A DNA stretch of 64,000 bases from Oscillatoriales cyanobacterium (GTDB taxonomy: Bacteria > Cyanobacteriota > Cyanobacteriia > Cyanobacteriales > Microcoleaceae). The stretch lies in assembly GCA_004293365.1 (NCBI GenBank), contig RDYN01000045.1:62001-126000 (forward strand), in the 5' to 3' direction. A program made the position numbers and the translations under genes. The notes beneath the pieces are model-generated. The model had not been told where the DNA came from and searched no databases. It saw only the letters and a list, made by a program, of their open reading frames with translations. Below, piece after piece: positions 4,510-54,347 of this stretch (positions are counted from its first letter, which is position 1; every line of letters begins with the position of its first letter).

Positions 4510-5919
4510 ATGGCGCCGATAGTATCAACTCAATCTATCACGGCGGAATCTGGACTCGATCGCCCGTCTGAGTATCCAGAATCCCTGAAAAGTCGATCGC
4601 CCAATCAAGAACTTTTACCGCTGACAGCCAATGTGAACGGCGATGTGCTGGAAATCGGAGGCTGCGAGGTGACAGCCTTGGTAGAGCAATTTGGCTCGCC
4701 ACTGTACATTTTAGACGAAGAAACGCTGCGGGCGACTTGCGCCCAGTACCGGGATGCTTTCAAGCATTACTATCCGGGCGAAACTCAAGTGCTCTATGCT
4801 TCTAAGGCTTGGAGTTGTTTGGCGGTTTGCGCGATCGCAGCTTCGGCAGAGTTAGGCATCGATGTCGTATCTGCCGGCGAAATCCGCACTGCACTGCAAG
4901 CTGGCGTTAGCCCTGATAAAATCTACTTCCACGGTAACAACAAGTCCCGCGCGGAACTCGAGCTAGCTGTCGAAAGCGGCTGTGCGATCGTAGCCGACAA
5001 CTGGCACGATTTAGAGACTCTCGCAGCCTTGGGAAGCAGCAAAACCGATCGATCGATACGAGTTATGGTGCGGTTTACTCCGGGAATTGAGTGTCACACC
5101 CACGACTACATTAAGACGGGTCAAATCGACAGTAAATTTGGCTTCGATCCCAATTCGCTCGATGACGTATTTAAGTTCATCAGCAAACAGCCCTGCTTAT
5201 CTTGCGTCGGAGTCCACGCTCACATAGGTTCTCAGATTTTTGAACTGCAACCCCATGACGATTTAGCCGAAGTCATAGTTGAGACCTTGACAAAAGCGCA
5301 GAGTTATGGTTTGCCAGCGACAGAAATTAATATTGGCGGCGGGTTGGGCATTCGCTATACTGAAGCGGACGATCCTCCAAGCATTGAAGATTGGGCTCGG
5401 ACAGTTTGCACCGCAGTGGTAGCAGCTTGCGATCGGCAGCAATTGAAGAAATTACCGAAATTGCTTTGCGAACCGGGTCGATCGCTCGTGGGTACAGCTT
5501 GCGTCACAGCTTATACGGTTGGCTCTAAAAAAGTCATTCCGGGAGTTAGGACGTATTTATCTGTAGATGGCGGAATGTCGGACAACCCGCGTCCCATAAC
5601 CTATCAATCAGTTTATCAAGTCCTCGCAGCCGGCAAAATGTCTGCTGAGTTAACGGAAACAGTGACCATTGCAGGGAAACACTGCGAATCAGGCGATATT
5701 CTGATTAAAGAGGCCAAATTGCCGGAGTGTCAGGCCGGAGATATTCTCGCCGTTACGGCTACAGGAGCATACAATTACAGTATGTCTTCTAACTACAACC
5801 GAGTGCCCCGACCGGCAGCGGTTTTAGTGAAAGATGGGGAAGCTCACACGATTTTAGAGCGGGAAACTGACGAGGATTTGCTGAGGTTTGACCGCCTTCC
5901 TAAAAGACTCGGAACTTAA
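4510..5919 (+). CDS. lysA: Diaminopimelate decarboxylase
   Basis: 469 residues; converts meso-diaminopimelate to L-lysine, the last step of lysine synthesis. Fold-type III PLP enzyme: the Schiff-base lysine is Lys99 in LYASKAW, the substrate/PLP loop is HAHIGSQI, the phosphate loop is INIGGGLG, then EPGRSLVG, the CESGD active-site cysteine segment, and GAYNYSMSSNYN near the end. The start is supported by AAGGAG a few bases upstream. About 50 residues precede the conserved domain. It is the normal reference for the second, lysine-less paralogue at 47659-48900. Confidence 0.96.
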   Translation: MAPIVSTQSITAESGLDRPSEYPESLKSRSPNQELLPLTANVNGDVLEIGGCEVTALVEQFGSPLYILDEETLRATCAQYRDAFKHYYPGETQVLYASKAWSCLAVCAIAASAELGIDVVSAGEIRTALQAGVSPDKIYFHGNNKSRAELELAVESGCAIVADNWHDLETLAALGSSKTDRSIRVMVRFTPGIECHTHDYIKTGQIDSKFGFDPNSLDDVFKFISKQPCLSCVGVHAHIGSQIFELQPHDDLAEVIVETLTKAQSYGLPATEINIGGGLGIRYTEADDPPSIEDWARTVCTAVVAACDRQQLKKLPKLLCEPGRSLVGTACVTAYTVGSKKVIPGVRTYLSVDGGMSDNPRPITYQSVYQVLAAGKMSAELTETVTIAGKHCESGDILIKEAKLPECQAGDILAVTATGAYNYSMSSNYNRVPRPAAVLVKDGEAHTILERETDEDLLRFDRLPKRLGT

Positions 5920-6044
5920 AAGAAAAGTAAGTAAAACATAAAAAGTAAAAAGTAAAAAGTAAGATGATTCATTGGGATTTCTTGATGATTGTTTTTGAAC
6001 TTTTTACTTTTGGCTTGTTCAGTAACGCGATTGGAATAACAACT

Positions 6045-6117
6045 GTTCATGGTTCATGGGTTCGAGTGCATCACGGTTCGCGGTTCACAGGCGGTAGCGT
6101 TCGATGAACCATGAACA
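6045..6117. repeat. Inverted repeat overlapping the cdaA start codon
   Basis: TGTTCATGGTTCAT at 6045-6058 and its exact complement at 6104-6117 flank a 45-base loop. The right arm contains the ATG of cdaA at 6111, so a transcript starting upstream could hide the start codon in a 14-bp stem. No clear ribosome-binding site is visible. Confidence 0.75.
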
Positions 6118-7004
6118 ATCAACAATCTGGCTATGACTTTGGCCTCGTTCAGTCTTTATTGATTCAGGCGATCGATATTGGACTGGTATTTGCGCTTGCG
6201 TATTTGGTGCTCGTCATTGTCGGGGAGCGCCGGACGCTTTGGATGGTACGGGGATTTATTATTTTGATGCTGGCGGCGGCGGTGAGCAACTGGGCTGGAT
6301 TGAGACTGTTGCACGTGGCGCTCAACAGCTTGGTGACGGGTTCTGCTGTGGCAATGGCGGTAATATTGCAGTCGGAGTTTCGCCGATTTCTGGAACAATT
6401 GGGTCGGGGGGAAATTATACAATTGTTTGGACGCGATCGCCGACCAACTCCCGAACCGGACAGCGTAATAGATGAAATTGTGGACGCAGTAAAAGAACTT
6501 TCGCAAAACCGCACGGGCGCTTTATTAATTGTAGAAACAGATTCTCCGATCGACGATCGGGATTTTTCAGTTCCGGGAGTGAAGCTAAATGCGGAAGTAT
6601 CTAAGGAATTGTTGCAGACTATCTTTCAGCCGCAAACTTTGCTCCACGACGGAGCTGTGTTGATTCGAGCTTCGCGGATCGTTTCGGCTGGGGTAATTTT
6701 GCCTTTGTCCGATCGCAGCGCGTCGCGGCAGTTGGGAACCCGCCACCGGGCGGCGATGGGGATTACAGAAAGGGTGCAAGCTTGCGTGTGCGTCGTGGTG
6801 TCCGAGGAAACGGGTTCTATTTCTCTGGCGCAGATGGGCACATTAAATCGACCTTTGACTAGCAGCAAACTTAAGGAATTGCTGGAAGCCAAGTTGTTTC
6901 CGTCGGAGGGAGAAAGAGTTGTGACTCCTATTCCGATCGGCAATTTCGGACGGCAGATAGGATTGAAGGGAGTAACACTATTAAAGCGGATACTGCGCCG
7001 TTAG
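6111..7004 (+). CDS. cdaA: Diadenylate cyclase, CdaA type
   Basis: 297 residues. Condenses two ATP into c-di-AMP, a second messenger for potassium, osmotic and cell-wall balance. About three N-terminal membrane segments (residues 10-90) precede the DAC domain, with HDGAVLI at about 178-184 and [10 protein letters not shown] at about 211; these DGA and RHR motifs are the catalytic signature. The C-terminal tail is short. uppS follows 19 bp downstream, a grouping that fits envelope control. The start lies inside an inverted repeat and lacks a clear ribosome-binding site. Confidence 0.93.
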
Positions 7005-7023
7005 TCGGGAATTGGGAGAAACC

Positions 7024-7770
7024 ATGAGTCAAGGAATTTGCTTGGAAAAGTTGCCTGCGGATCTACAACAAGAACTACTGCCTAAGCACATAGCAGTGAT
7101 TATGGACGGAAACGGGCGCTGGGCTAAGAATCAGGGGTTGCCGCGGATTGCGGGACACCGGCGGGGGGCTAGCGCTCTCAAGGAACTGCTGCGCTGCTGC
7201 AAAGATTGGGGAATTCCAGCTTTAACAGCCTATGCTTTTTCGACGGAGAACTGGGGTCGGCCGGCCGGGGAGGTGGATTTTTTGATGAGTTTGTTTGAGG
7301 GGAAGCTGCGACAAGAATTGCGGGAGATGGTGGACGAGGACGTGCAAATTCAATTTATGGGGAATTTGCAGGCTTTGCCTAAGTCTTTGCAGGCGGAAAT
7401 CGAGCGCTCTGTGACGGCTACTCAGCACAATCGGGGGATTTTGTTTCGGGTGGCGACGAATTACGGCGGCCGCCAGGAGATTGTACAGGCTTGTCGGGCG
7501 ATCGCCACTCAGGTGCAAGAGGGCAAGTTGCAGCCGGAGGAGATTGATGAGGTTTTATTTAAACGCTATTTGTATACTGCTGATGTTTGCGATCCGGATT
7601 TGCTGATTCGGACGAGCGGGGAAATGCGGCTGAGCAATTTTCTGCTGTGGCAAATGGCTTATTCGGAAATTTACATTACTGAGACGCTGTGGCCGGATTT
7701 CGATCGATCGGAGTTTCACCGCGCTTTGTCTACTTATCAGCAGCGCAATCGCCGTTTTGGCAAAGTCTAA
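7024..7770 (+). CDS. uppS: Undecaprenyl (isoprenyl) diphosphate synthase, cis type
   Basis: 248 residues. Adds isopentenyl units to farnesyl diphosphate to build the lipid carrier for peptidoglycan and surface polymers. Motifs: [14 protein letters not shown] with the catalytic Asp, [16 protein letters not shown], and [15 protein letters not shown] near the C-terminus. ATG at 7024 is preferred to a TTG at 7012. Probably co-transcribed with cdaA. Confidence 0.95.
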
Positions 7771-9269: not shown

Positions 9270-10133
9270 CTAGGAATCGCTTTCTCGCAGATTCCGTATA
9301 TCCTCAAGGCTCAGCCCTGTGGTTTGGCTGATGGTTTCGTCATCTAGGCGTGAAAGTAGCTGTCGGGCGATTGCGATCGCCTTTTCTCGCTGTCCTTCCT
9401 CTCTTCCTGCTTCTCGTCCTTCCTGAAGAGCCTTAATAATCGCGCCCTGTTGGTCATAAATAAACTGTTCTCTTCTGTCCAAAGCTTCCAATTCTTCTCG
9501 GCTTAAACTGGCTTGATTGGCAATATTAAAAGCTTCATGTATTTCTGGTATGCTATCCATTGTTTCGGGAACTGATGTTAAACTTTTCGCATATTTCATG
9601 AAATAAATCCATTTGTCTGCTAAGGTTTCAAGTTCTTCCTGTCCTTTGGTAAACTTGGGCAACTCTACAAACACTAAATCCAGATCGTTTTCCGGATAAG
9701 TAAAGTTTTTCTTTACTTCTTTGTACACGAATCTAGAAAGGAATTCTTCGCTGTTAGCAAACATTTCAAAATCCGTAATTGTCAAAGCAATCACTGGCTT
9801 CAGCAATCGATATCCTTGTGCTGCTTCCAACTGAAAAGCATAAGTCTTAGCTGCATTGTACAAAACTCGCTTGCCAAAAGATTGGACGTTGAGCACTTGC
9901 ATTTCAATGATTACTAAAGTTCCGTCGTTGAGTTGGGCTTTCACATCCAGATAACTATCTTTTAAGCCTTCAAGTTTGGGCGGCAGATTTGGGTTGATAA
10001 TTTCTAAGTCTTGGATGGTGGGATTTCCTTCATAAATTAAGGCGTTGAGAAAGCTGATTAGGATGTCTGTGCTTTCTGAGGAACCAAAGATTTTTTTGAA
10101 GGCGTAATCTGTTTTTGGGTTGATAAATATCAT
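9270..10133 (-). CDS. Rpn-family PD-(D/E)XK nuclease / putative transposase
   Basis: 287 residues. The opening FINPKTDYAFKKIFG and the nuclease core YLDVKAQLNDG followed by VIIEMQ, then the YNAAKTYAFQL helix, mark the Rpn (recombination-promoting nuclease) family. The acidic pair D...ExQ forms the PD-(D/E)XK site. The C-terminus has a charged GREAGREEGQREKAIAIARQ segment typical of cyanobacterial members. ATG at 10133 is chosen because the frame upstream begins with a TTG and 14 unrelated residues. Often mobile; no IS ends are seen here. Confidence 0.85.
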   Translation of the reverse strand: MIFINPKTDYAFKKIFGSSESTDILISFLNALIYEGNPTIQDLEIINPNLPPKLEGLKDSYLDVKAQLNDGTLVIIEMQVLNVQSFGKRVLYNAAKTYAFQLEAAQGYRLLKPVIALTITDFEMFANSEEFLSRFVYKEVKKNFTYPENDLDLVFVELPKFTKGQEELETLADKWIYFMKYAKSLTSVPETMDSIPEIHEAFNIANQASLSREELEALDRREQFIYDQQGAIIKALQEGREAGREEGQREKAIAIARQLLSRLDDETISQTTGLSLEDIRNLRESDS

Positions 10134-42813: not shown

Positions 42814-43340
42814 GGAGATTGTAAAGAAGTGTTGCGGAAGATTTATTAAAAATTGTTGCAGCTTATCGATCCCGTTGTTACTGTGTGTATAGAGATGAAA
42901 AACTCATATCTAGGAGGTATGGAATTATGCTCTATATTGCTCATATATTCTGGGCCAATTGGGACGAGTCCCTGGCGAATATCCTCGGCGAATAAATTCG
43001 CGGCTACACAAGCAAAGTCTGCCTCCGCAGACTGAAGAAGGATAACCAATCCGGCGAATAAATTCGCGGCTACACAAGCAAAGTCTGCCTCCGCAGACTG
43101 AAGAAAGAAGGAAATTAAGCCAACATTGGCGTGATTTCTTACCTTGTTTTCCCATCTCAGGTTTGTCTGCTTGAATGAGGTTGACTTACCAGATTCCTGA
43201 TGAATTTCTGGCAAATCAAAGTTTAGTTCAACTCACGTGTACGTTGCCGATTCAAAAGTCTTGAGTTAACTCCACAAAATTCATAACTCGCAACTTATAA
43301 CTCCGTACACGGTGAGCATCAAAATCAGAGGGTTTAATCT
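42814..43340. repeat. Intergenic region with two tandem copies of a 66-bp repeat
   Basis: 527 bp. Copies at 42986-43038 and 43052-43106 share CGGCGAATAAATTCGCGGCT, ACACAAGCAAAGTCTGCC and TCCGCAGACTGAAGAA. Each has two small hairpins (CGAATAAATTCG; AGTCTGC-CTCC-GCAGACT). The remaining DNA includes the SDR gene promoter. A minus-strand open frame here only reads the repeats. Confidence 0.8.
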
Positions 43341-44177: not shown

Positions 44178-44306
44178 GGCGGGCACGCACCATCCACCGC
44201 CCCTACAGTAGGGTGCGCACTGCGCACCTTACTCGTTTGTAGTGAGGAATGCGAGTCCTAGGATTTTGATCGGGACTCGCATTCCTCACTACAAACCAAT
44301 TTAATT
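44178..44306. repeat. Three repeat families side by side
   Basis: 44178-44207 equals the repeat copy inside rimI; 44208-44232 is a GTAGGGTGCGCACTGCGCAC copy; 44233-44306 is a diverged GTAGTGAGGAATGCGAGTCC palindrome with its complement ending CTCACTACAAAC. Confidence 0.88.
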
Positions 44307-44362: not shown

Positions 44363-46117
44363 ATGAGCAATAAAAAATCATTTCTAACTTTCAAAGGTAG
44401 CCAGAAAAAAAAATCCTCTCTCCCTCCAAATCCTCTGGTTGAATTTGCCTCAAGTTGGCGAATAGCTTGGGGAAAAATAGATGCGATCGCAGATGATGCA
44501 GCGTGGCGAGAAGGTCAAGTTGCGATTATTTGCTCTAATCCAAGCGTTCAACTCATTCTCAGTCCCTCAGAAAAATTTGTGATTGTTGGCGATATTTGGC
44601 TGAGCAATCGATCGCAATTGCTGGAAAAATTGGGCATTTCTGCGAGTAGTTGGCAGGGGTGCGATCGCCAATTAGTCGCTCAACTGTGGGAAGGCTGGGG
44701 CGCTGAATGCTTGCCGCTGCTGTCAGGTATGTTTGCGTTTGCGGTTTGGGAGAGGGAATCGCAGGTTTTGCGGCTGGCGCGCGATCGCACGGGGGCGCGC
44801 ACTCTCTACTACACTAATGTTGGCGCGATTCGCTGGATTGCGCCTCAACTGCGGGCGATCGCACAATACCACTCAAGGGCGATCGACCTCGTAGCCCTGC
44901 GAGATTACCTCTGCTGTTCCTTCGTTCCGGGCGATCGTACCCTGTGGCAGCAAGTGCGAGAACTGCGCCCAGGAAGCATTTTAAGCTTCCCTGACGAGAC
45001 AATTTCGGCCTACTGGGAACTGCAAGAACAAGTTGTCGAGGCCGAACAATCTTTGGAATGGCACGGCGCGAGATTGCGCTCTCTTTTAGATGAAATTGTC
45101 CGAGAATATTTGCCGGAAAATCAACCTGTAGGCGTGTTTCTTTCCGGCGGGTTAGACTCTAGCTGCATCGCGGCTTTAGCTGCTCAATTTTGCGATCGGG
45201 CAATTCACAGTTACTCAATTCATTTTGGGGAAGAATGCGCCAACGAATTAGAATTTTCCAGTCTAGTCGCCGAACACTGTCAAACTGAACACCACATTTT
45301 AGAAATTAGCTTTCGGGATATGTGGAAAAAGTTGCCAGAAACTATGGGTTACTTAGACGATCCGATCGGCGATCCGCTAACAGTGCCAAATTTGCTATTA
45401 GGAAGAATGGCGCGAGAATCCGTCGAAGTAATTCTCAACGGCGAAGGTGGCGATCCCTGTTTTGGCGGCCCCAAAAATCAACCAATGTTAATGAACAGCT
45501 TGTACAATTCTGTCACTAATTTGGATGCGCTGCCAGCATATTTGCTGTCATTTCAAAAGTGCGCGGCGGATTTACCTCAACTTTTAAAACCGGAAATTTG
45601 GGCAGCGATGCAAGCAGAACCTTCGGTATTTAGTGCGGATTTGAATGCTAGCGGCAATTATCTGAATCGATTAATGGCGTTAAATATCAAGTTTAAGGGG
45701 GCAGACCAGATTTTGACCAAAGTGAACAACTTGACTCAAGCTGCGGGCTTGCACGGGCGATCGCCCTTGTTTGACCAGCGAATCGTGGATTTGAGTATGA
45801 CGATTCCGCCTGAGTACAAATTGTCCGGGGTTGTGGAGAAAGCTGTGCTCAAACAAGCGGTGGCAAATTTACTGCCGGCTCAAATTTTGGACAGGCCCAA
45901 AAGTGGGATGCTAGTCCCGGTACAGCTAGGGTTTAAGAAGTTTTGGCAGCGGGAAGCCAGGGGTTTGCTATTGTCAAGAAGAGCTGCTATTGCTCCTTAT
46001 TGTAATCAAGCTTTAATTGCACAATGGTTAGATTATGAGGGAGATACTTGGGGCCGTTATGGCGTTAAGCTGTGGTTATTGACGAGTTTAGAACTTTGGC
46101 TGCAAGGTAATAAGTAA
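44363..46117 (+). CDS. Asparagine-synthetase-like ATP-PPi enzyme lacking the glutaminase Cys
   Basis: 584 residues. The N-terminal half follows the class II glutamine amidotransferase fold, but the essential Cys2 is missing (MSNKKSF), so ammonia from glutamine is unlikely. The second half has the AMP-forming PP-loop VFLSGGLDSS at about 265, with NGEGGDPCFGG where the usual motif is GEGxDE; here Pro replaces Glu. RPKSGMLVPV keeps the family Lys. It could join a carboxylate to an amine as in beta-lactam or peptide-cyclising relatives. Convergent with the minus-strand operon carrying a second such gene. Confidence 0.85.
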   Translation: MSNKKSFLTFKGSQKKKSSLPPNPLVEFASSWRIAWGKIDAIADDAAWREGQVAIICSNPSVQLILSPSEKFVIVGDIWLSNRSQLLEKLGISASSWQGCDRQLVAQLWEGWGAECLPLLSGMFAFAVWERESQVLRLARDRTGARTLYYTNVGAIRWIAPQLRAIAQYHSRAIDLVALRDYLCCSFVPGDRTLWQQVRELRPGSILSFPDETISAYWELQEQVVEAEQSLEWHGARLRSLLDEIVREYLPENQPVGVFLSGGLDSSCIAALAAQFCDRAIHSYSIHFGEECANELEFSSLVAEHCQTEHHILEISFRDMWKKLPETMGYLDDPIGDPLTVPNLLLGRMARESVEVILNGEGGDPCFGGPKNQPMLMNSLYNSVTNLDALPAYLLSFQKCAADLPQLLKPEIWAAMQAEPSVFSADLNASGNYLNRLMALNIKFKGADQILTKVNNLTQAAGLHGRSPLFDQRIVDLSMTIPPEYKLSGVVEKAVLKQAVANLLPAQILDRPKSGMLVPVQLGFKKFWQREARGLLLSRRAAIAPYCNQALIAQWLDYEGDTWGRYGVKLWLLTSLELWLQGNK

Positions 46118-46141
46118 TATCTTTCCGCACGCGCTTTCTCA

Positions 46142-46266
46142 GAGTCCGGCAGGGGTTAAAACCCCTGCCTCAAAGCTAAAGTCGTCTGAAGACGACTAAT
46201 GAGTTCTTCAGTCCTCTTTGAGAGGACTTTCGCTATTAGACAGGGGTTTCAACCCCTGGCGGACTC
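46142..46266. mobile_element. 125-bp MITE-like element with 26-bp terminal inverted repeats
   Basis: GAGTCCGGCAGGGGTT... at 46142-46167 is complementary to 46241-46266 with two mismatches by eye. Inner parts fold too (GTCGTCTGAAGACGAC; CTCTTTGAGAG). It lies between convergent genes and could end transcription from both sides. No coding capacity. Confidence 0.75.
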
Positions 46267-46349
46267 GCGGGTCTACTAAAGGACTTGGCGGGCTGACAAA
46301 TTAAGTTGACGTTGACACAAATGGACAATACCACATACCCCCACAAACC

Positions 46350-47642
46350 TCAACCAAAACTGTCAACAACATAGATAGAACTATCCGTACCGCCTAGCAG
46401 AATTAAACTACTATCATCGCTACCTATATCTCGACTTCCAGCAATTCCTCGATTCAGAATTTGAATCAGTTTCTGAGGACTAAACGATTCCAATTCCACA
46501 TAATTACCAAATTCCAACCACTGCAATTCCTCAGCGGATAAATCTTGGCGAATCTCTGCTGATAATTGTTTAGCATCTTGTGCATTTTTCTCGGAACTTA
46601 GAACAAACATACTGCCGCCACCCGCCAGAATTTGCTTTGGTAACAATCCGATATCAATAATGATCGCACTGTTATCTCGGAACCAATTAGGACTCGTGCG
46701 TAGGTGGTGAACTAAACCAATTCCTTTGGGACTGCAATCGTGCAAAGCGTACACTCTTAAGTCGGGATTGCGGCGCAGCATTTCCATAGTTGTGTTGAAG
46801 ATACTTTGAGGATATCCGGTAATACTAAGGACTGCACAGTTGTTTTCAAAGTGAAAATTGTTGGCGATTAAAAATTGGGCAATTTCCGGGCGATCGCACA
46901 CCACCAATCTGTCGAAACTGTAAGCGCTGACATCGGGATTGACGACCGCATTTTTATTTGTATCGCGGGGAGGCGGTAGCATTTTTGCGATCGAGGAGTT
47001 GATTTCTGTCCACTTATTAATCCAGTATTGAAACAGGTTGAATGTAAGAATAACTTCTTGAGTTAGTTTAGGAATTTTTAGGCTTCCCAAATAGATAGAT
47101 AGGATTCCGATCGCAAAACTAGCGAAAAACACTTCGGAGGAATATAACAACTGACTCAAGCCGATCCCGCAGAGCATAAATATTCCTCCCCAAATTTGCA
47201 AAGCTCTTGCAAAAGTCTGCCGTTGTTTGTACGGATATTTGCGAGAACGGCTCTTCACAAAAAATATCGCTAACAATAAAATATTTACTGCCAACATGGC
47301 GTAAATAAGTTCATTTGTCATTCCCGCAGATAATAAAAACAATCCACCAATAAAAAAGCACCAGAAATTATAAAACATACACTGATAAACCAAGCCAAAC
47401 AAATTCTCATTTTGGGTTCTCGATCGCTGATCTAAAAAGTAAAATAACTGTCGGGGAGTAAAAAACAGCGTATGGTTCACAGAAACATCGGCGATCGCCT
47501 TAGCAAACATGGGGTCAGTTATTTTTAAATTTGTCATTAGAGTTGGTTCAAAAGCAAACTGATGGCTGCATTTTTTACAGCGATAGCTATTGGCTCTGCG
47601 CTCTTTTAACTTATTGTCAGTTTGGCACTTGATGCACTTCAT
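46350..47642 (-). CDS. Membrane protein with N-terminal zinc ribbon and C-terminal Toprim-like domain
   Basis: 430 residues. CIKCQ and CKKC at the N-terminus form a zinc ribbon. Four hydrophobic helices lie at about 90-220. The C-terminal soluble part (about 245-430) has RLVVCDRPEIAQFLI, LSITGYP and VYALHDCSPKGIGLVHHL, resembling the Toprim fold of topoisomerase VI/Spo11-type proteins (DxDPxG-like loop), a by-eye inference. It starts 16 bases after the stop of the decarboxylase-like gene with TAGGAGA before the ATG, so it belongs to that operon. Confidence 0.7.
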   Translation of the reverse strand: MKCIKCQTDNKLKERRANSYRCKKCSHQFAFEPTLMTNLKITDPMFAKAIADVSVNHTLFFTPRQLFYFLDQRSRTQNENLFGLVYQCMFYNFWCFFIGGLFLLSAGMTNELIYAMLAVNILLLAIFFVKSRSRKYPYKQRQTFARALQIWGGIFMLCGIGLSQLLYSSEVFFASFAIGILSIYLGSLKIPKLTQEVILTFNLFQYWINKWTEINSSIAKMLPPPRDTNKNAVVNPDVSAYSFDRLVVCDRPEIAQFLIANNFHFENNCAVLSITGYPQSIFNTTMEMLRRNPDLRVYALHDCSPKGIGLVHHLRTSPNWFRDNSAIIIDIGLLPKQILAGGGSMFVLSSEKNAQDAKQLSAEIRQDLSAEELQWLEFGNYVELESFSPQKLIQILNRGIAGSRDIGSDDSSLILLGGTDSSIYVVDSFG

Positions 47643-47658
47643 AAAAATCTCCTAGTGA

Positions 47659-48900
47659 TTATTCAAAAACTTGATTTGCTAACAAAACGCTGTAATCTTC
47701 TCTCTCACGAATTAGCCGATGTCCGCCATTTTCTAACAGCACTTCCGCAGGTTTGGGGCGGTGCAAAAAGTGCGAGGACATCGCATATCCGTAAGCTCCC
47801 ACATCTAAAATACCGAGAATTTCTCCAACTGTCAAAGCCGGAAGTTGACAGTTTTTCCCCAAATAATCCCGCGAATAAGTCGTATTGCCACAAACATCAG
47901 TAAAATGTAGAGCATCCCGGCAATTCCAGGTATAAATCTCTCGATAACCGCCGTGAACCGACGGTACTGAAAGATTGGCAACAGTCGTATCTACACCGAC
48001 AATTTGTTTGGCTTCCTGCCATTTTGTGGAAACAACTTGAGCGAGCAAAGTAGCACATCCCGCTACAACCGATCGCCCTGGTTCAATTATTAAGTCAATT
48101 GGGCGGTCTAGTTGACAAATTCTGCTGGTCAATTCTGCCCCAAACAGTTCCCAGTCAAAGGCTGTACCTCCGCTGTGGTAAGGATAGCCAAAACCCCCGC
48201 CAAAATCGAGATACTCCCAATCTGGCAATTGCTGGGCTGCGGCAATTATCGTATCAATTACTTGAGTAAACGCTGCGGTGGAATTGGTGCCGGTACCGCG
48301 ATAAAAATGCAAGCCCCTAAGCTTTAATCCGGCTGTTTTTGCGATCGCAATTGCTTGTGGAAATTCGGGCGATCGCACTCCTATGCGACTTTCCCCCGTT
48401 AATTCGGGCAAATTCAGCCTCAAACCCAGACTGGGCGGTTCTAAAACCTGCTGGTTTTCCCTAAGAGATTGGTACACTTCGCAGCACAACTGCAATTGAG
48501 CGAGACTGTCGAAATTAAGAGTTTTGACACCCCATTTGAGAACTTGTTCCATCTCATCTCGGTGCAGATTACTGCCGCTGTAAACAATGTTTTCCGGCGC
48601 AAAACCCGCCTTAATTCCCAAATAAATATCTCCCGGTGTATTCGCGTGCAATCCCCACCCGCAAGCTTGAAATATTTGCAGCAAGGCGATGTTGCCGTTG
48701 GTGACGCTGGCAAAACAAAATTGAGTTTGCGGATAAGAAATAGCGTTAGTAATGCGGGCGATCGTCCGCTGCAAAACATCGCTTTGATAAACGTAAAGCG
48801 GCGAACCGTAAGTCGCTAATAACTCTTTCGCTAAGTCAAAAGTAAAAGGCTCTTCTTTCAAAATCGAGTTGCTAGTATCAATTGTTTGCATAAGTATCAA
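47659..48900 (-). CDS. Fold-type III PLP decarboxylase-like protein lacking the Schiff-base Lys
   Basis: 413 residues, related to LysA. Retained parts are the phosphate loop DFGGGFGYPY, EPGRSVVAG, and the C-terminal GAYGYAMSS. At the cofactor-lysine position, however, FASVTNG (Val66) aligns with YASKAWS of the lysA protein in this window, and the HxHIGS loop is HFYRGTG. It therefore cannot form the usual internal aldimine, unless another Lys serves. It may bind a PLP-linked substrate, use a different cofactor, or be a binding protein. Middle gene of the minus-strand operon between the second Asn synthetase and the zinc-ribbon protein. Confidence 0.85.
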   Translation of the reverse strand: MILMQTIDTSNSILKEEPFTFDLAKELLATYGSPLYVYQSDVLQRTIARITNAISYPQTQFCFASVTNGNIALLQIFQACGWGLHANTPGDIYLGIKAGFAPENIVYSGSNLHRDEMEQVLKWGVKTLNFDSLAQLQLCCEVYQSLRENQQVLEPPSLGLRLNLPELTGESRIGVRSPEFPQAIAIAKTAGLKLRGLHFYRGTGTNSTAAFTQVIDTIIAAAQQLPDWEYLDFGGGFGYPYHSGGTAFDWELFGAELTSRICQLDRPIDLIIEPGRSVVAGCATLLAQVVSTKWQEAKQIVGVDTTVANLSVPSVHGGYREIYTWNCRDALHFTDVCGNTTYSRDYLGKNCQLPALTVGEILGILDVGAYGYAMSSHFLHRPKPAEVLLENGGHRLIREREDYSVLLANQVFE

Positions 48901-49010
48901 GTAGATGTTTATTTAATTAACAATTATCCCAAAACCGTTGCGATCGAAAACTCCTCGTCTCCCTCCTCTTTCCCCTCTGCGCCCTCTGCGCCCTCTGCGG
49001 TTCGATCCTC

Positions 49011-50843
49011 TTATTCCTGCCACCTCTGACGATAACTCCAAATCGATCGAGACAACCAAAACGGATGATTCCAAGATTTATATTTCACCTCCTCACCTAA
49101 AACTTGCGATCGCCAATTTTGCCACATCACCAACAGCCAAAGTATCTCGCCAATGCGCCGCCCTTGAATTCCGGCTGCGAATTTGCCGGACATAAGTTGA
49201 GCCGCTAAATCCGGTTTCCAGTGTTTCTCTGACAGCAAAACGGCAGGATTCAACCAGTCGCCGATGTCATGCCAAAATTCATTAAAACACCACGAAGTTA
49301 AGGGCACACCCATACCGCGCTTTTCCCGCCACACTATGTCCGCAGGCAGCCAATTTTCCACCGCCCGTTTGAGGATGTATTTCTCGCAAGCGCCCCGCAA
49401 ACACAGTTCTCCCGATAGTTTAAATGTCCAGTCTGTGAGGGCAAAATCGCAAAAGGGCGATCGGACTTTTAGACCAAAAGCCAAAGCCAAATTAGCAGCG
49501 CGCGGATGGATGTTCTGCGCCCCTTTCAGCATCAAACCCGCGCGGCGGAGGCGATGCAGCAAAGACGCGCCCACCGCAGGATTAAGAGCCTCTAACAGCC
49601 AATCTTGAGGCTGCACATTCTGAATTTCCGTGTAAAATTCTGGCTGATAAACTTTAGATTCGTATCCCCAAAGGCGGTGAAAAGTTCGCAAATATTGCAA
49701 GGCAAAAGTTTGGTCTCCGGCGGGATTTGCTGCTTGATAAACAGCCGCTGCAATCAGGGGTTTATTCGTCCAGCCTGCAAATAATTGATCGCCACCTTCG
49801 CCGTTAAAAACGATCGCACATTCTTGACTCGCAGCCTCATTTAACAGGTACAGCGGGACTGTAACTCCGTCGCCAAAGGGCAAATCTAAAGCTTTCACAG
49901 CAGAATGCAAAACTTGTTTAATCCGGCGCGGCCTAGAATCTACTTTTACTAAAGGAATTTTCAGCGAATCGGCAACTTTTTGGGCCCAAGGATATTCGGG
50001 AATTCCGGCATCGCCGAAGTCGAGAGTATAAGCGCGGACTTTGACTCCGGCTTTGACTAATAAGGCTGCGACTACTGAGGAATCTAAACCGCCTGATAGA
50101 AATACTCCGACAGTTTCATTGCTATTGATATCGGAAATCTGACGTTCTACGGCATCTTTAAGTAAGTTTTGCAATTGTGTTATTGCTTCTGCTTCGTCTT
50201 GTATTTCTTCTGAACTTTCCCGCCATTGCAACAAGCATTTTGATGGATTGTTCAGAATGACACCGCTATCTCGATCGCACTCCCAAGTTAATTCGGTTCC
50301 GGCGGGAACTGCGAACACATTTTTTACAGGAGTTAAGGGAGTTGGGACGTAGGAAAAACAGCTATAACCGTACAAACCGGGAATGCTGACATCGGGTTTT
50401 TCGCAAATATTTAACAGCAGTTGCAAACTCGATGCAAACCAAATACTCTGCTCAATTTGCGTCCAGTAAAGCGTTACTCGCCCGAAGGGTTCTCGTCCTA
50501 AAATCAGGCAATTTTCGCGGACGTTTGCCCAGGCATCAGGTAACAGCAAACCGTTGGTTGATGGATAAGTAGATACTCCAGAGGCTGAGAGGGCGGCGAT
50601 TTGCAAAGTACGGCTTTTTTTTATTGGCTGGTTTGGCGGGCGATCGCATTCGGTGCTGGCTACGTTCCAAATAGGATAATTTTCGTCAACTGCGGTGGGG
50701 AAATTGGCAGAATCTTCGATTTTTTGAATTGGGATTTCGCTGAAAGACTTGGCGATCGTTGTCGCTAGTAGGGCTTCCAATTTGTGGTGAGAATCGCAGC
50801 CCCAGTATCCTACAAATTGACGCGGTTTGTTGGTAATTTTCAT
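49011..50843 (-). CDS. Second asparagine-synthetase-like enzyme lacking the glutaminase Cys
   Basis: 610 residues. Like its neighbour at 44363 it has no Cys2 (MKITNKP) in the N-terminal domain. PP-loop VFLSGGLDSS at about 250, NGEGGDQLFAG (Gln for the usual Glu) and REKRGMGVPLTSW follow. The two paralogues share the GMxVP ending of the last motif. First gene of the operon with the lysine-less decarboxylase-like protein and the zinc-ribbon membrane protein. The start ATG and first nine codons are copied upstream in the leader region. Confidence 0.88.
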   Translation of the reverse strand: MKITNKPRQFVGYWGCDSHHKLEALLATTIAKSFSEIPIQKIEDSANFPTAVDENYPIWNVASTECDRPPNQPIKKSRTLQIAALSASGVSTYPSTNGLLLPDAWANVRENCLILGREPFGRVTLYWTQIEQSIWFASSLQLLLNICEKPDVSIPGLYGYSCFSYVPTPLTPVKNVFAVPAGTELTWECDRDSGVILNNPSKCLLQWRESSEEIQDEAEAITQLQNLLKDAVERQISDINSNETVGVFLSGGLDSSVVAALLVKAGVKVRAYTLDFGDAGIPEYPWAQKVADSLKIPLVKVDSRPRRIKQVLHSAVKALDLPFGDGVTVPLYLLNEAASQECAIVFNGEGGDQLFAGWTNKPLIAAAVYQAANPAGDQTFALQYLRTFHRLWGYESKVYQPEFYTEIQNVQPQDWLLEALNPAVGASLLHRLRRAGLMLKGAQNIHPRAANLALAFGLKVRSPFCDFALTDWTFKLSGELCLRGACEKYILKRAVENWLPADIVWREKRGMGVPLTSWCFNEFWHDIGDWLNPAVLLSEKHWKPDLAAQLMSGKFAAGIQGRRIGEILWLLVMWQNWRSQVLGEEVKYKSWNHPFWLSRSIWSYRQRWQE

Positions 50844-51040
50844 GTTATATCTATCTATAGGCGAGTTTTTTAGCTATGTAGGGTGCGCACTGCGCACCTT
50901 ACTGACGCGGTTTGTTGGTGATTTTCATGTTATAGTGATTTTCATGTTATATCTATCTATAGGCGAGTTTTTTAGCTATGTAGCGCACTGCGCACCTTTA
51001 GCTATGTAGGGTGCGCACTGCGCACCTTACAAATTTTAGG
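50844..51040. repeat. Duplicated 5' region of the Asn-synthetase-like gene with repeat copies
   Basis: The stretch with GACGCGGTTTGTTGGT, the ATG complement CAT and TATATCTATCTATAGGCGAG occurs twice (about 50819-50877 and 50904-50972, with an inserted ATGTTATAGTGATTTTC variation). GTGCGCACTGCGCACC copies lie at about 50882, 50983 and 51012. The duplication makes a short upstream frame at 50899-50928. Confidence 0.8.
50899..50928 (-). other. Possible upstream ORF copied from the Asn-synthetase-like gene
   Basis: ATG plus eight codons identical in meaning to the real gene start (MKITNKPRQ), then TAA supplied by the GTGCGCAC repeat. It would be translated before the true start if the transcript begins upstream. 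Purely sequence-based. Confidence 0.5.
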
Positions 51041-51057
51041 ATCGCGATTATATAAAA

Positions 51058-51681
51058 TTATTTAACTTGGAAGGATGTACTGCCGATCGCCCGACTTTCA
51101 AGAAACATTTTAACTTGCCAATTTCCGCTAGCAGCAGCAGTACCAATTTGGTGGCGGCATTGAGTATTCCAGACTGGTTTGTCGATTTCGCGAGTTTGAT
51201 AGCGGTTTTGTTTGACAACTTGACCGCTGGGGTCAATCCAATCGCAAGTTACCGACAGTTTCTTGCCTAAAGGTGCATCTTTTAAGGTGGTACGGTAAAA
51301 GATTTCTGGATTGTTTTGGCGGGAAATAACAGTCAAATTGCCGCCATCATCCTGCACGGAAGTTATGCGGTTTTGTTGAACTGAAATGCGATCCAGGGCC
51401 TGTCGGCTTTGTTGGATGAAAAATCCGGTAAGTGCGATCGCCCCCACAGCAGCCGCAGCCACTCCTCCAGCAATCCACCGATTTCTGCGTTCCTGCTGGG
51501 CCAGTGCTTCCCGGCGCTGCAACTGGATTAAAGCCTCATCTAGCAACTCAGTCGGCAAGCCCAATTCCTGCAAAATTTGTGTAACTTCTGCGGAACTAAG
51601 TTCAGCTTCCCGGAGGTTAGAAAGGCGTTGTACTTCCGCTACTATTTGCGTTAGTTGAGTTTGAGTCAGTCGATTTTCCAT
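51058..51681 (-). CDS. Conserved single-pass membrane protein, unknown function
   Basis: 207 residues. A helical cytoplasmic part (about 1-65, LTQTQLTQIVAEVQRL) leads to one helix (RWIAGGVAAAAVGAIALTGF) and an outer beta-rich domain (LSVTCDWIDPSGQVVKQNRY) with two Cys that may pair. No family named with certainty. Confidence 0.7.
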   Translation of the reverse strand: MENRLTQTQLTQIVAEVQRLSNLREAELSSAEVTQILQELGLPTELLDEALIQLQRREALAQQERRNRWIAGGVAAAAVGAIALTGFFIQQSRQALDRISVQQNRITSVQDDGGNLTVISRQNNPEIFYRTTLKDAPLGKKLSVTCDWIDPSGQVVKQNRYQTREIDKPVWNTQCRHQIGTAAASGNWQVKMFLESRAIGSTSFQVK

Positions 51682-53295: not shown

Positions 53296-54033
53296 TCATT
53301 TTCCCTGCACGGGATGTTGCCCGTAATAAGGCAAAGCATCCCACCAATCAGGGCGAATTCCTTGTTTCCACTCCAAATAAGCCAATTCCAACACACCAGA
53401 AACCGACGAACCCAACTCGCTGCCAACTTCAATCAACTGATAGGAATTTTCCCAACTTCCCAACTTTTCCTGCCAAGATTCCGCCGTCATTACCGTATCG
53501 GAAAACAACTCAGTTACACCAGAATTACTGTTAACTGAATAAACAGCGCCAAACAATTGCCCCCGCTGTGCAGGCATTTGCAGCGCAATATCATCTCTCA
53601 AAAGCCCCCCCGAAGCCTGGGGGACTTCCTCACTCAAAAGCCCCCCCGAAGCCTGGGGGGGTTCTAATTCCAAAAGCCCCGAAGCCTGGGGGGGTTCCAA
53701 CCAAGCCACAGCCGCCAAAGTTGAAATAGTAAAAACCGGAATATCCAACTGTTGAGCCAAAGTCCGCGCCGTCACCATACCCATGCGAGTCCCCGTAAAA
53801 CCTCCGGGCCCCTTCGCCACTGCAATAAAAGCCAAATCCGCCCAAGTTTGCGGCCCTATAAACTCTACTAAATGCTGGTGCAAATCCGTTGCTAAACTGC
53901 GGCCCAAATTCCAAGTTTGGCAGCGAGAATCGCCGGAAAAATTGCTGATTGCTAAACCTAATTCGGGTGTTGAGGTGTGCAAGGCTAAACCGTATTTTTT
54001 AACTGATGTTCCGTCGGGGGAATTGCTATTCAC
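53296..54033 (-). CDS. tsaB: tRNA threonylcarbamoyladenosine biosynthesis protein TsaB
   Basis: 245 residues. Partner of TsaD in making t6A37 of ANN-decoding tRNAs. YGLALHTSTPELGLAI, AVAKGPGGFTGTRMGM and RTLAQQL mark the family. Between about residues 113 and 148 the protein carries an insert with PPQASG repeated three times, encoded by a G/C-rich palindromic repeat, placed after TISTLAAVA. GTG at 54033 is the start. It begins two bases after the stop of the membrane protein upstream, so the genes are coupled. Confidence 0.9.
   Translation of the reverse strand: MNSNSPDGTSVKKYGLALHTSTPELGLAISNFSGDSRCQTWNLGRSLATDLHQHLVEFIGPQTWADLAFIAVAKGPGGFTGTRMGMVTARTLAQQLDIPVFTISTLAAVAWLEPPQASGLLELEPPQASGGLLSEEVPQASGGLLRDDIALQMPAQRGQLFGAVYSVNSNSGVTELFSDTVMTAESWQEKLGSWENSYQLIEVGSELGSSVSGVLELAYLEWKQGIRPDWWDALPYYGQHPVQGK
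53590..53700. repeat. Palindromic CCCCCGAAGCCTGGGGG repeat inside tsaB
   Basis: Three copies of a unit AAAAGCCCCCCCGAAGCCTG (second arm GGGG), period about 45 and 40 bp, each able to hairpin. It stays in frame in tsaB, giving PPQASG or VPQASG each time. Confidence 0.85.
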
Positions 54034-54035
54034 GA

Positions 54036-54347
54036 TTACTGATAATTTTCCTTTACAAAAAACAGAGGCAATGCTACAACTAAGCAACCCAAAAGGACGC
54101 CGAATATTCCCGTGTTTAAAATCCTTGAATTGCCCATGCCACCACTTATCAGAAACAGCACTACTAAACTGGCAAATAAATTCTTATTTGCAAATTCTTT
54201 GTTTTGGGAAACTTGATATTTGACGACCATAAAACCGGAGGCAACTATGAGCGCGAACCAAGAATTAAAGATGACTATTTGAGAGCCAAAGATGAACCAA
54301 ACTAAAGCAAATATGAGCGAATCGAGCCAGAAATCCTGATTTTTCAA
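54036..54347 (-). CDS. Small polytopic membrane protein
   Basis: 103 residues with three or four hydrophobic helices (about 8-40, 55-75, 80-98). Not recognised. It lies between the kinase (15-bp gap) and tsaB (2-bp gap) on one strand, so it is part of that transcript. Confidence 0.7.
   Translation of the reverse strand: MKNQDFWLDSLIFALVWFIFGSQIVIFNSWFALIVASGFMVVKYQVSQNKEFANKNLFASLVVLFLISGGMGNSRILNTGIFGVLLGCLVVALPLFFVKENYQ

Follow-up and report, generated by a model that had tools for sequence, protein, structure and literature searches.

A set of five genes from an Oscillatoriales cyanobacterium is described here, in which an asparagine-synthetase-like enzyme is paired with a protein tail ending in Phe-Gly (FG). 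The set lies in a stretch of 64,000 nucleotides (contig RDYN01000045.1, positions 62,001 to 126,000 of the forward strand, assembly GCA_004293365.1), referred to below as the window, in a host genome of 7.3 Mb. It encodes two asparagine-synthetase-like proteins devoid of the glutaminase cysteine Cys2 (ASN1 and ASN2), a decarboxylase-like protein that has lost the lysine holding pyridoxal phosphate (the PLP-fold protein), a membrane protein (MEM) and a fifth member, D207. The first four had been put forward in an earlier note, drawn from the letters alone, as a candidate biosynthetic cluster; the gene calls proved correct, and D207, the Toprim domain of MEM, its FG tail and the loss of a Cys-Glu pair from the PLP-fold protein come in addition to that note. 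ASN1 and the FG tail are a constant pair. It is quite possible, if somewhat below an even chance, that ASN1-type ligases take the carboxyl end of the MEM tail as a substrate or carrier end and join it to an amine.

The tail was examined in 117 MEM proteins of at least 300 residues (111 distinct), 87 of them from contigs and the others from genomes, a plasmid and the window, some apparently representing the same strain twice. Two MEM-like open reading frames (ORFs) of locus L065, described below, and that of L063 were left out of the count as distant, and none of the three ends in FG. This dipeptide closes 116 of the 117 copies, 110 of the 111 distinct sequences and all 59 representatives retained at 75% identity; the exception, L115, ends in QKC, and the available stretch stops about 100 bases further on. 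Among the representatives, positions -1 and -2 have zero entropy, position -3 is Ser in 47, position -4 is Glu, Asp or Gln in 55 and Tyr stands at position -7 in 43, most positions from -8 to -30 having an entropy of 2.1 to 3.7 bits. The tail is rich in Asp, Ser and Gly and mostly closes with (D/E/Q)SFG-COOH. Lysine represents 0.08% of the last 32 residues against 4.4% of the body, and 114 of the 117 tails contain none. The Phe codon is TTT in 99 copies and TTC in 17, the Gly codon GGT in 80, GGG in 18, GGC in 10 and GGA in 8, and the stop codon TAA in 60, TGA in 33 and TAG in 23. Since every Phe and Gly codon and each of the three stops is in use, what is kept is the end of the protein. Two or three MEM copies are found in 8 of 79 loci (L067, L129, L131, L136, L139, L092, L116 and L069), and these tandem copies end in FG too, as do all three in L129. 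The two copies of L067 share identical last 34 residues and otherwise differ, which suggests a homogenisation of the tail. No relative of MEM was detected among 55 pattern stretches of viral contigs.

The AlphaFold2 (AF2) model of MEM, built from 28 sequences with a mean predicted local distance difference test (pLDDT) of 84.1, consists of a zinc ribbon followed by helices at residues 81-105, 109-132, 138-166 and 169-187; in the tail, residues 408-410 and 415-423 fall below a pLDDT of 50. Four putative zinc cysteines are present in 29 of 30 aligned MEM sequences, the region being missing from the other one. The C-terminal domain was matched by Foldseek to the topoisomerase Topo VI-A (1d3y, E 7.7e-5, probability 1.00), and a sub-threshold Pfam match to PF21180 (E 4.2e-4) agrees with the Toprim fold of Topo VI-A/Spo11. 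The metal-binding Glu and DxD motif of these proteins are lacking: the Glu is replaced by Cys249 in 30/30 aligned sequences, the first Asp of DxD is retained in 23 and gives way to N in 6 and to S in 1, and S, T or N occupies the second position in all 30. MEM resembles Topo VI-A/Spo11 in its fold and differs from them by the replaced metal-binding acids and by its predicted membrane helices.

The set was followed in two surveys, in which genomes and loci are designated by G and L numbers. The first covered 79 MEM contigs out of 189 relatives found, some of the stretches being short; the PLP-fold protein occurs within the stretch in 75 of them, ASN2 in 67, D207 in 64 and ASN1 in 43, and the prevailing order is D207-ASN2-PLP-MEM, with or without ASN1. 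This is also the order on the minus strand of the window, where ASN1 stands on the plus strand and faces the other four, and its conservation supports the operon of the PLP-fold protein, MEM and ASN2 predicted in the earlier note. The closest MEM relatives are those of Oscillatoriales (89% identity), Lyngbya (86%) and Microcoleus (69%). The second survey covered 291 genomes of Cyanobacteriota, with cut-offs of E <=1e-75 for ASN1 and E <=1e-60 for the PLP-fold protein. MEM matches were obtained in 31 genomes, from which G119 (a fragment of 50 residues), G036 (27% identity, no FG end) and G178 (84 residues, E 8.7e-4) were set aside, leaving 28. ASN1 is present in 30 genomes, namely 27 of the 28 with MEM versus 3 of the 263 without it (Fisher p 1.3e-33, a value that ignores shared ancestry). 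The PLP-fold protein was found in 26 genomes, comprising 25 of the 28 MEM genomes (at this threshold it is absent from G004, G018 and G038) and G035; the G035 match (E 1e-60, in a genome devoid of MEM) possesses the lysine, in YACKANSN, and was rejected as an ordinary decarboxylase. ASN2 was detected in 24 of the 49 genomes searched, which included all 28 MEM genomes, and all 24 are within these 28. The association extends to unlinked genes, ASN1 being located apart from MEM in G097, G123, G151, G172 and G229, and ASN2 as well in G172. In G121, the MEM genome without ASN1, an apparent deletion has joined ASN2 to the PLP-fold protein in a single ORF (L053, 11102-12958); this cassette is decaying. 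The four families named in the earlier note thus occur together in many other genomes, and the alternative of scattered neighbourhoods, which would have spoken against a cluster, was not borne out. That note had proposed a small-molecule or peptide-modifying pathway. Such a pathway is possible, and the evidence leans to the peptide or protein side, because the C-terminus of MEM is near-constant and because its most constant partner is ASN1 (27/28) and not the decarboxylase-like protein (25/28) or ASN2 (24/28).

The plasmid NZ_CP108509.1 of Streptomyces sp. NBC_01237 (L065) provides a further view of this pair. Three MEM-like ORFs follow one another in a region unannotated in the record, and none ends in FG. 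They are followed by a protein of 179 residues with one hydrophobic segment, which ends in GDWDAGWNNDDGAWSDDDFG and thus in GAWSDDDFG, and then by ASN1, starting near 9380 and about 40% identical to the ASN1 of the window. The GC content of the three codon positions of the 179-residue protein (0.69/0.53/0.93) is Streptomyces-like and matches that of its neighbours. No match to the PLP-fold protein, ASN2 or D207 was obtained in the 16.6 kb of this stretch. Among 9430 ORFs of at least 40 residues from the compared loci and the window, 8 outside the MEM family end in [DENQS]xFG, and, as judged by eye, the 179-residue protein alone has such a tail. In this one locus the tail is therefore separable from MEM and yet stays beside ASN1. 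In two of the MEM-like proteins (5477-7725), HDAD stands where cyanobacterial MEM proteins show HD/N-x-S/T/N, and because this motif is retained their Toprim domain may be less degenerate.

Both synthetases of the window possess the synthetase domain of the asparagine synthetase superfamily. The Pfam family PF00733 (Asn_synthase) matches ASN1 with E 5.7e-69 and 233.9 bits and ASN2 with E 3.4e-53 and 182 bits, for a cut-off of 21, and the ATP loop SGGLDSS is retained in the two proteins, as had been noted; the variants of this loop in the families are SGGLDSA in one ASN2 and SGGIDSS in some aligned sequences. The hallmarks of glutamine-hydrolysing AsnB are lacking. The scores against TIGR01536 (245.2 bits for ASN1, 166.2 for ASN2) are under the cut-off of 267.1, and the absence of Cys2, the central claim of the earlier note, was borne out in 67 ASN1 and 91 ASN2 sequences (158 in all, 63 and 86 of them distinct): no MCGxxG-like N-terminus was found, even with the frames read back to the previous stop, which speaks against a Cys2 hidden by the choice of start. 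A triplet [MVL]-C-[GAS] precedes the SGGxDS loop in 11 of the 158; in 4 it is just upstream of the first ATG, GTG or TTG, where no common start codon exists, and in the other 7 it lies at residues 21 to 244, including ASN1 of L128, whose longest ORF has Leu-Cys-Gly at residue 21. The glutaminase fold itself is retained in ASN1, as shown by a GATase_7 match (E 2.2e-16). The altered GEGxDE site, also reported earlier, characterizes the families as a whole: ASN1 reads GEGGDP in 67/67, as part of NGEGGDP-x-F-x-GP, and ASN2 ends this site in DQ in 91/91, as part of NGE-x-x-DQLF-x-GW. The Glu of GEG is retained in the aligned sequences of both, and K/R-x-K-x-GM near the C-terminus in those that are not truncated there. 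By comparison with Escherichia coli AsnB (1ct9), the Glu after the Asp of GEGSDE is replaced by Pro in ASN1 and by Gln in ASN2. In place of the Tyr five positions further, ASN1 has Pro, read from the sequence as the alignment ends just before it, and ASN2 has Trp.

Across the whole host genome, the Pfam asparagine synthase search returned two full matches, ASN1 and ASN2, as well as two partial matches scoring 28.3 and 21.8 bits. Since the full-length family is confined to the cassette, the asparagine of this host is presumably made on tRNA. An anti-phage defence system was considered and dropped, as the only PADLOC hits, in 5 proteins, were of the QueC type and fell on the ATP loop (best E 6.6e-6).

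The PLP-fold protein matches PF02784 (Orn_Arg_deC_N) with E 2.4e-23, and the solved structures nearest to it are those of diaminopimelate decarboxylases (2p3e, E 2.8e-45). It shares the fold family of the latter enzyme (LysA) and scores 238.3 bits against the LysA model TIGR01048, whose cut-off is 297.9; both the Schiff-base lysine and the catalytic Cys and Glu are missing. The lysine of YAxKAN is Val in 25/25 aligned proteins and in 75/76 copies from further contigs, the remaining copy being unmatched by the search pattern, so that the description of the protein as lysine-less, already made in the earlier note, applies to the family. In the 2p3e alignment, the Cys-Glu of ICETGD (the CE(S/T)GD motif) stands opposite Thr-Tyr of NTTYSRD (GNTTYSRD). 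With Lys, Cys and Glu all lost, the protein should be dead as a decarboxylase. The GGGFG, EPGR and GAYG motifs are retained, and because the phosphate cup is kept it is plausible that PLP, pyridoxamine phosphate (PMP) or another phosphorylated ligand is bound non-covalently. Among the families tested, the synthetases, the PLP-fold protein and MEM each miss defining features of their nearest named family.

On the basis of these data, the set may be a membrane-anchored system for tail ligation. MEM would offer a flexible, acidic tail with almost no lysine, and the partner enzymes would read its free C-terminal Phe-Gly. ASN1, and in cyanobacteria also ASN2, would adenylate a carboxylate with ATP and without glutamine, the likeliest carboxylate being the C-terminal glycine of the MEM tail. 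This glycine would then be linked to an amine, either that of a small molecule built on a carrier-like tail or that of another protein. The PLP-fold protein would most likely bind the amine partner or non-covalent PLP or PMP, or act as a regulatory subunit, and D207 and MEM would bring the complex to the membrane. A second bond, or the presentation of the acceptor, is probably what ASN2 and the PLP-fold protein were added for. The ligation of the tail end to an amine is favoured because of the constant pairing of ASN1 with the FG tail, the precedents for action of the asparagine synthetase family on C-termini and those for carrier proteins such as LysW and the substrates of the PEARL enzymes.

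The first of these precedents are PesC, TsrC and ScdTA, which share the asparagine synthetase fold. PesC is reported to adenylate the C-terminal carboxylate of a ribosomal peptide, a step that we also suggest for the tail of MEM, and the other two enzymes carry out the amidation of C-termini (PMC13060819). PesC uses ammonia derived from glutamine, unlike ASN1 and ASN2, which possess neither Cys2 nor the Glu/Tyr dyad, and the precursors of the three enzymes are short, whereas the candidate substrate is here a membrane protein of 430 residues. Lasso cyclase, beta-lactam synthetase and CarA, the analogy drawn in the earlier note, are also relatives of asparagine synthetase that form amides without free ammonia, and the structures 1jgt and 1q15 were matched by the synthetases; ASN1 (176.6 bits) and ASN2 (50.6 bits) are under the cut-off of 525 of the cyanobacterial lasso cyclase model NF033535. 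Among carriers, LysW has four zinc cysteines, and amino acids are attached to its C-terminal EDWGE (PMC10433800). MEM possesses the same type of four-cysteine site (C3, C6, C22 and C25, zinc being putative) and, like LysW/ArgW, an acidic-aromatic-Gly end, DDFG or ESFG instead of EDWGE. LysW is described there as a small protein of a known pathway, loaded by LysX on the side chain of its C-terminal Glu, while MEM lacks this EDWGE and ends at the Gly of FG. A homology between MEM and LysW is unsupported, no Pfam match to such a family being found. In the Pearlin/PEARL systems (PMC9303977), the C-terminal carboxylate of a carrier is activated and the product is grown there; PEARLs phosphorylate this carboxylate and use aminoacyl-tRNA, in contrast to the asparagine synthetase family that would be the activating one here.

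Several observations weigh against tail ligation. The Glu363-Tyr368 dyad is conserved in PesC, AsnB, AsnO, TsrC and ScdTA, and the Tyr368Phe mutant is inactive (PMC13060819). From spacing and alignment, we infer that the equivalent positions are P/P in ASN1 and Q/W in ASN2. The dyad of the C-terminal amidating enzymes would then be absent and the carboxylate pocket would differ, so that these proteins need not adenylate the C-terminus of a peptide; this counts against a simple amidation. Moreover, 3 of the 30 ASN1 genomes (G011, G085 and G114) have no MEM match. ASN1 is broken in G011, into two ORFs (L211, 6841-9537) with other ORFs between them as by insertion, and reads GGL for GGP in G114. 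That of G085 looks intact, and neither a MEM-like ORF nor a credible FG-tailed one was found in the 19 kb examined around it. No constant transporter, protease or tailoring enzyme was present among the neighbours of 32 loci (31 and the window). The separation of the tail from MEM is known from a single Streptomyces locus, L065 being the only one of this type in the plasmid collection. A search of the host genome for further FG tails with the pattern SANKMNTTYGGNTRR gave 88 matches versus 60 for the reversed control, and covered 20 of the 88, chosen by their codons; no match among these closed a long ORF with such a tail, the preceding open stretch being at most 82 codons. This is a weak negative, because the pattern misses AGY serine codons and even MEM itself. 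Finally, the ligation chemistry is here deduced from sequence and precedent, and the conservation of the tail fits a docking motif equally well.

This last point leads to a serious rival explanation, possible but rather unlikely, in which the FG tail is a docking arm. It would fit into a pocket, such as the vestigial glutaminase pocket of ASN1, and bring the two synthetases and the PLP-fold protein together at the membrane, where they would produce a small molecule out of free substrates. A C-terminus that stays fixed at the end of a variable linker of low model confidence does resemble a tethered docking motif, the glutaminase fold of ASN1 has outlived its Cys2, and the Glu/Tyr dyad is gone from both synthetases. 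A pathway of this kind would be expected to have product genes such as a constant transporter, and none was seen; the catalytic residues of the decarboxylase are lost; and some genomes with MEM and ASN1 have no PLP-fold protein, at the threshold used, or no ASN2, so that MEM and ASN1 alone must do something.

An assembly with little or no catalysis appears improbable. The zinc ribbon, the dead Toprim domain, the lysine-less decarboxylase and the glutaminase-dead synthetases would then be ligand-binding modules of a sensor or envelope complex of pseudoenzymes. Hallmark catalytic residues are lost in four protein families, and zinc-ribbon membrane proteins are known from PspA-type envelope operons (PMC11237479). 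The SGGxDS(S/A) loop, the Glu of GEG and K/R-x-K-x-GM in the aligned ASN1 and ASN2 suggest, on the contrary, that ATP is used, and no PspA-type gene was noticed beside the cassette, although no search was aimed at one. As C-terminal motifs are often read by proteases, the tail could also be a signal for a protease or chaperone unrelated to the synthetases, which would make an independent metabolite; this is very unlikely, since the tail accompanies ASN1 even when carried by another protein in L065, MEM accompanies ASN1 across genomes and the 20 matches read in the host genome contain no other long ORF with such a tail.

The coordinates of the five genes and of their main features are collected in Table 1.

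Table 1. Position of the five-gene set and of its features in the window.
Feature	Position	Strand	Basis
D207, 207 residues: predicted helix pair, one hydrophobic segment, C-terminal beta-sandwich	51058..51681	-	AF2, conserved position
ASN2, asparagine-synthetase-like without Cys2; Q353/W358 for the Glu/Tyr of AsnB GEGSDEVFGGY	49011..50843	-	PF00733, 1ct9 alignment
PLP-fold protein, diaminopimelate-decarboxylase-like, PLP lysine gone	47659..48900, TTG start; ATG at 48891	-	PF02784, TIGR01048, 2p3e alignment
Val63 codon of the PLP-fold protein, site of the Schiff-base lysine	48703..48705	-	2p3e alignment; numbering from the ATG at 48891
MEM: zinc ribbon, four predicted membrane helices, degenerate Toprim domain, acidic FG-ending tail	46350..47642	-	
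MEM zinc ribbon, residues 1-33; C3, C6, C22, C25	47544..47642	-	four Cys in 29/30 aligned
MEM helices, residues 81-187, taken as membrane-spanning	47082..47402	-	AF2; insertion inferred from hydrophobicity by eye
MEM Toprim-like domain, residues 245-330	46653..46910	-	PF21180 below cut-off, Foldseek 1d3y
MEM tail, final 32 residues, low model confidence	46353..46448	-	D/S/G-rich, lysine-poor
C-terminal Phe-Gly codons of MEM	46353..46358	-	FG end in 116/117 copies
ASN1, asparagine-synthetase-like without Cys2; P365/P370 for the Glu/Tyr of AsnB GEGSDEVFGGY	44363..46117	+	PF00733, 1ct9 alignment

The fifth member, D207, was recognized as a cluster upstream of ASN2 in 18 of the 32 loci compared. 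The other recurring neighbour clusters of these loci are mostly shadow or short ORFs, D207 being the sole longer addition to the set. Its AF2 model has a mean pLDDT of 67.9, residues 100-206 being mostly above 85, and its Foldseek matches are generic Ig-like or Wzt-type beta-sandwiches (best E 4.3e-6). The spacer between D207 and ASN2 (50818-51030) contains repeats of 49 and 32 nt that copy the start region of ASN2 with 98 and 97% identity, as well as a 34-nt GTGCGCACTGCGCAC element that occurs a second time at 44199. Scans for promoters and terminators gave no excess over shuffles. Elsewhere, a 57-nt unit is found twice, 66 nt apart and with 98% identity (42986-43108), downstream of a carotenoid-oxygenase-like ORF, and the ORF 53296-54087, which we take to resemble TsaB, contains the in-frame peptide repeat PPQASG-x-LL/VPQASGGLL. 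Two loci from one genus outside the class of the window, L060 and L061, share extra neighbours of MEM and ASN1, identified in L060 as a 2OG-Fe(II) oxygenase, MOSC, GT41 and a flavin amine oxidase; these were rejected as members of the set and regarded as local. In Gloeothece verrucosa PCC 7822 (L064, NC_014534.1), the five genes are carried by a plasmid typed as conjugative, beside an annotated protelomerase.

A literature search, from which subscription papers were largely out of reach, returned no title or abstract opening on this locus. Ribosomally made tails activated by ligases are a known kind of system, and the chance of a new kind of conjugation is smaller. It is distinctly improbable, in particular, that an asparagine-synthetase-type enzyme, and not an E1, ATP-grasp or tRNA-using one, activates the C-terminal Gly of a membrane protein and links it to an amine on another molecule or protein, the acceptor being offered by a decarboxylase fold devoid of the lysine. 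If the synthetases do attach something to the end of MEM, this would be a new way to build molecules or to mark proteins on a tail made by the ribosome. A MEM tail that is loaded or conjugated would reveal an unrecognised family of activating enzymes for carrier-tail or protein-conjugation systems, would account for a PLP fold that keeps its phosphate cup and has no lysine, and would provide a defined and testable substrate, a short peptide ending in SFG or DDFG. The set occurs in numerous filamentous cyanobacteria and in lineages of the phylum beyond the class of the window, partly on plasmids of Gloeothece and Streptomyces, which offers multiple hosts for such a study.

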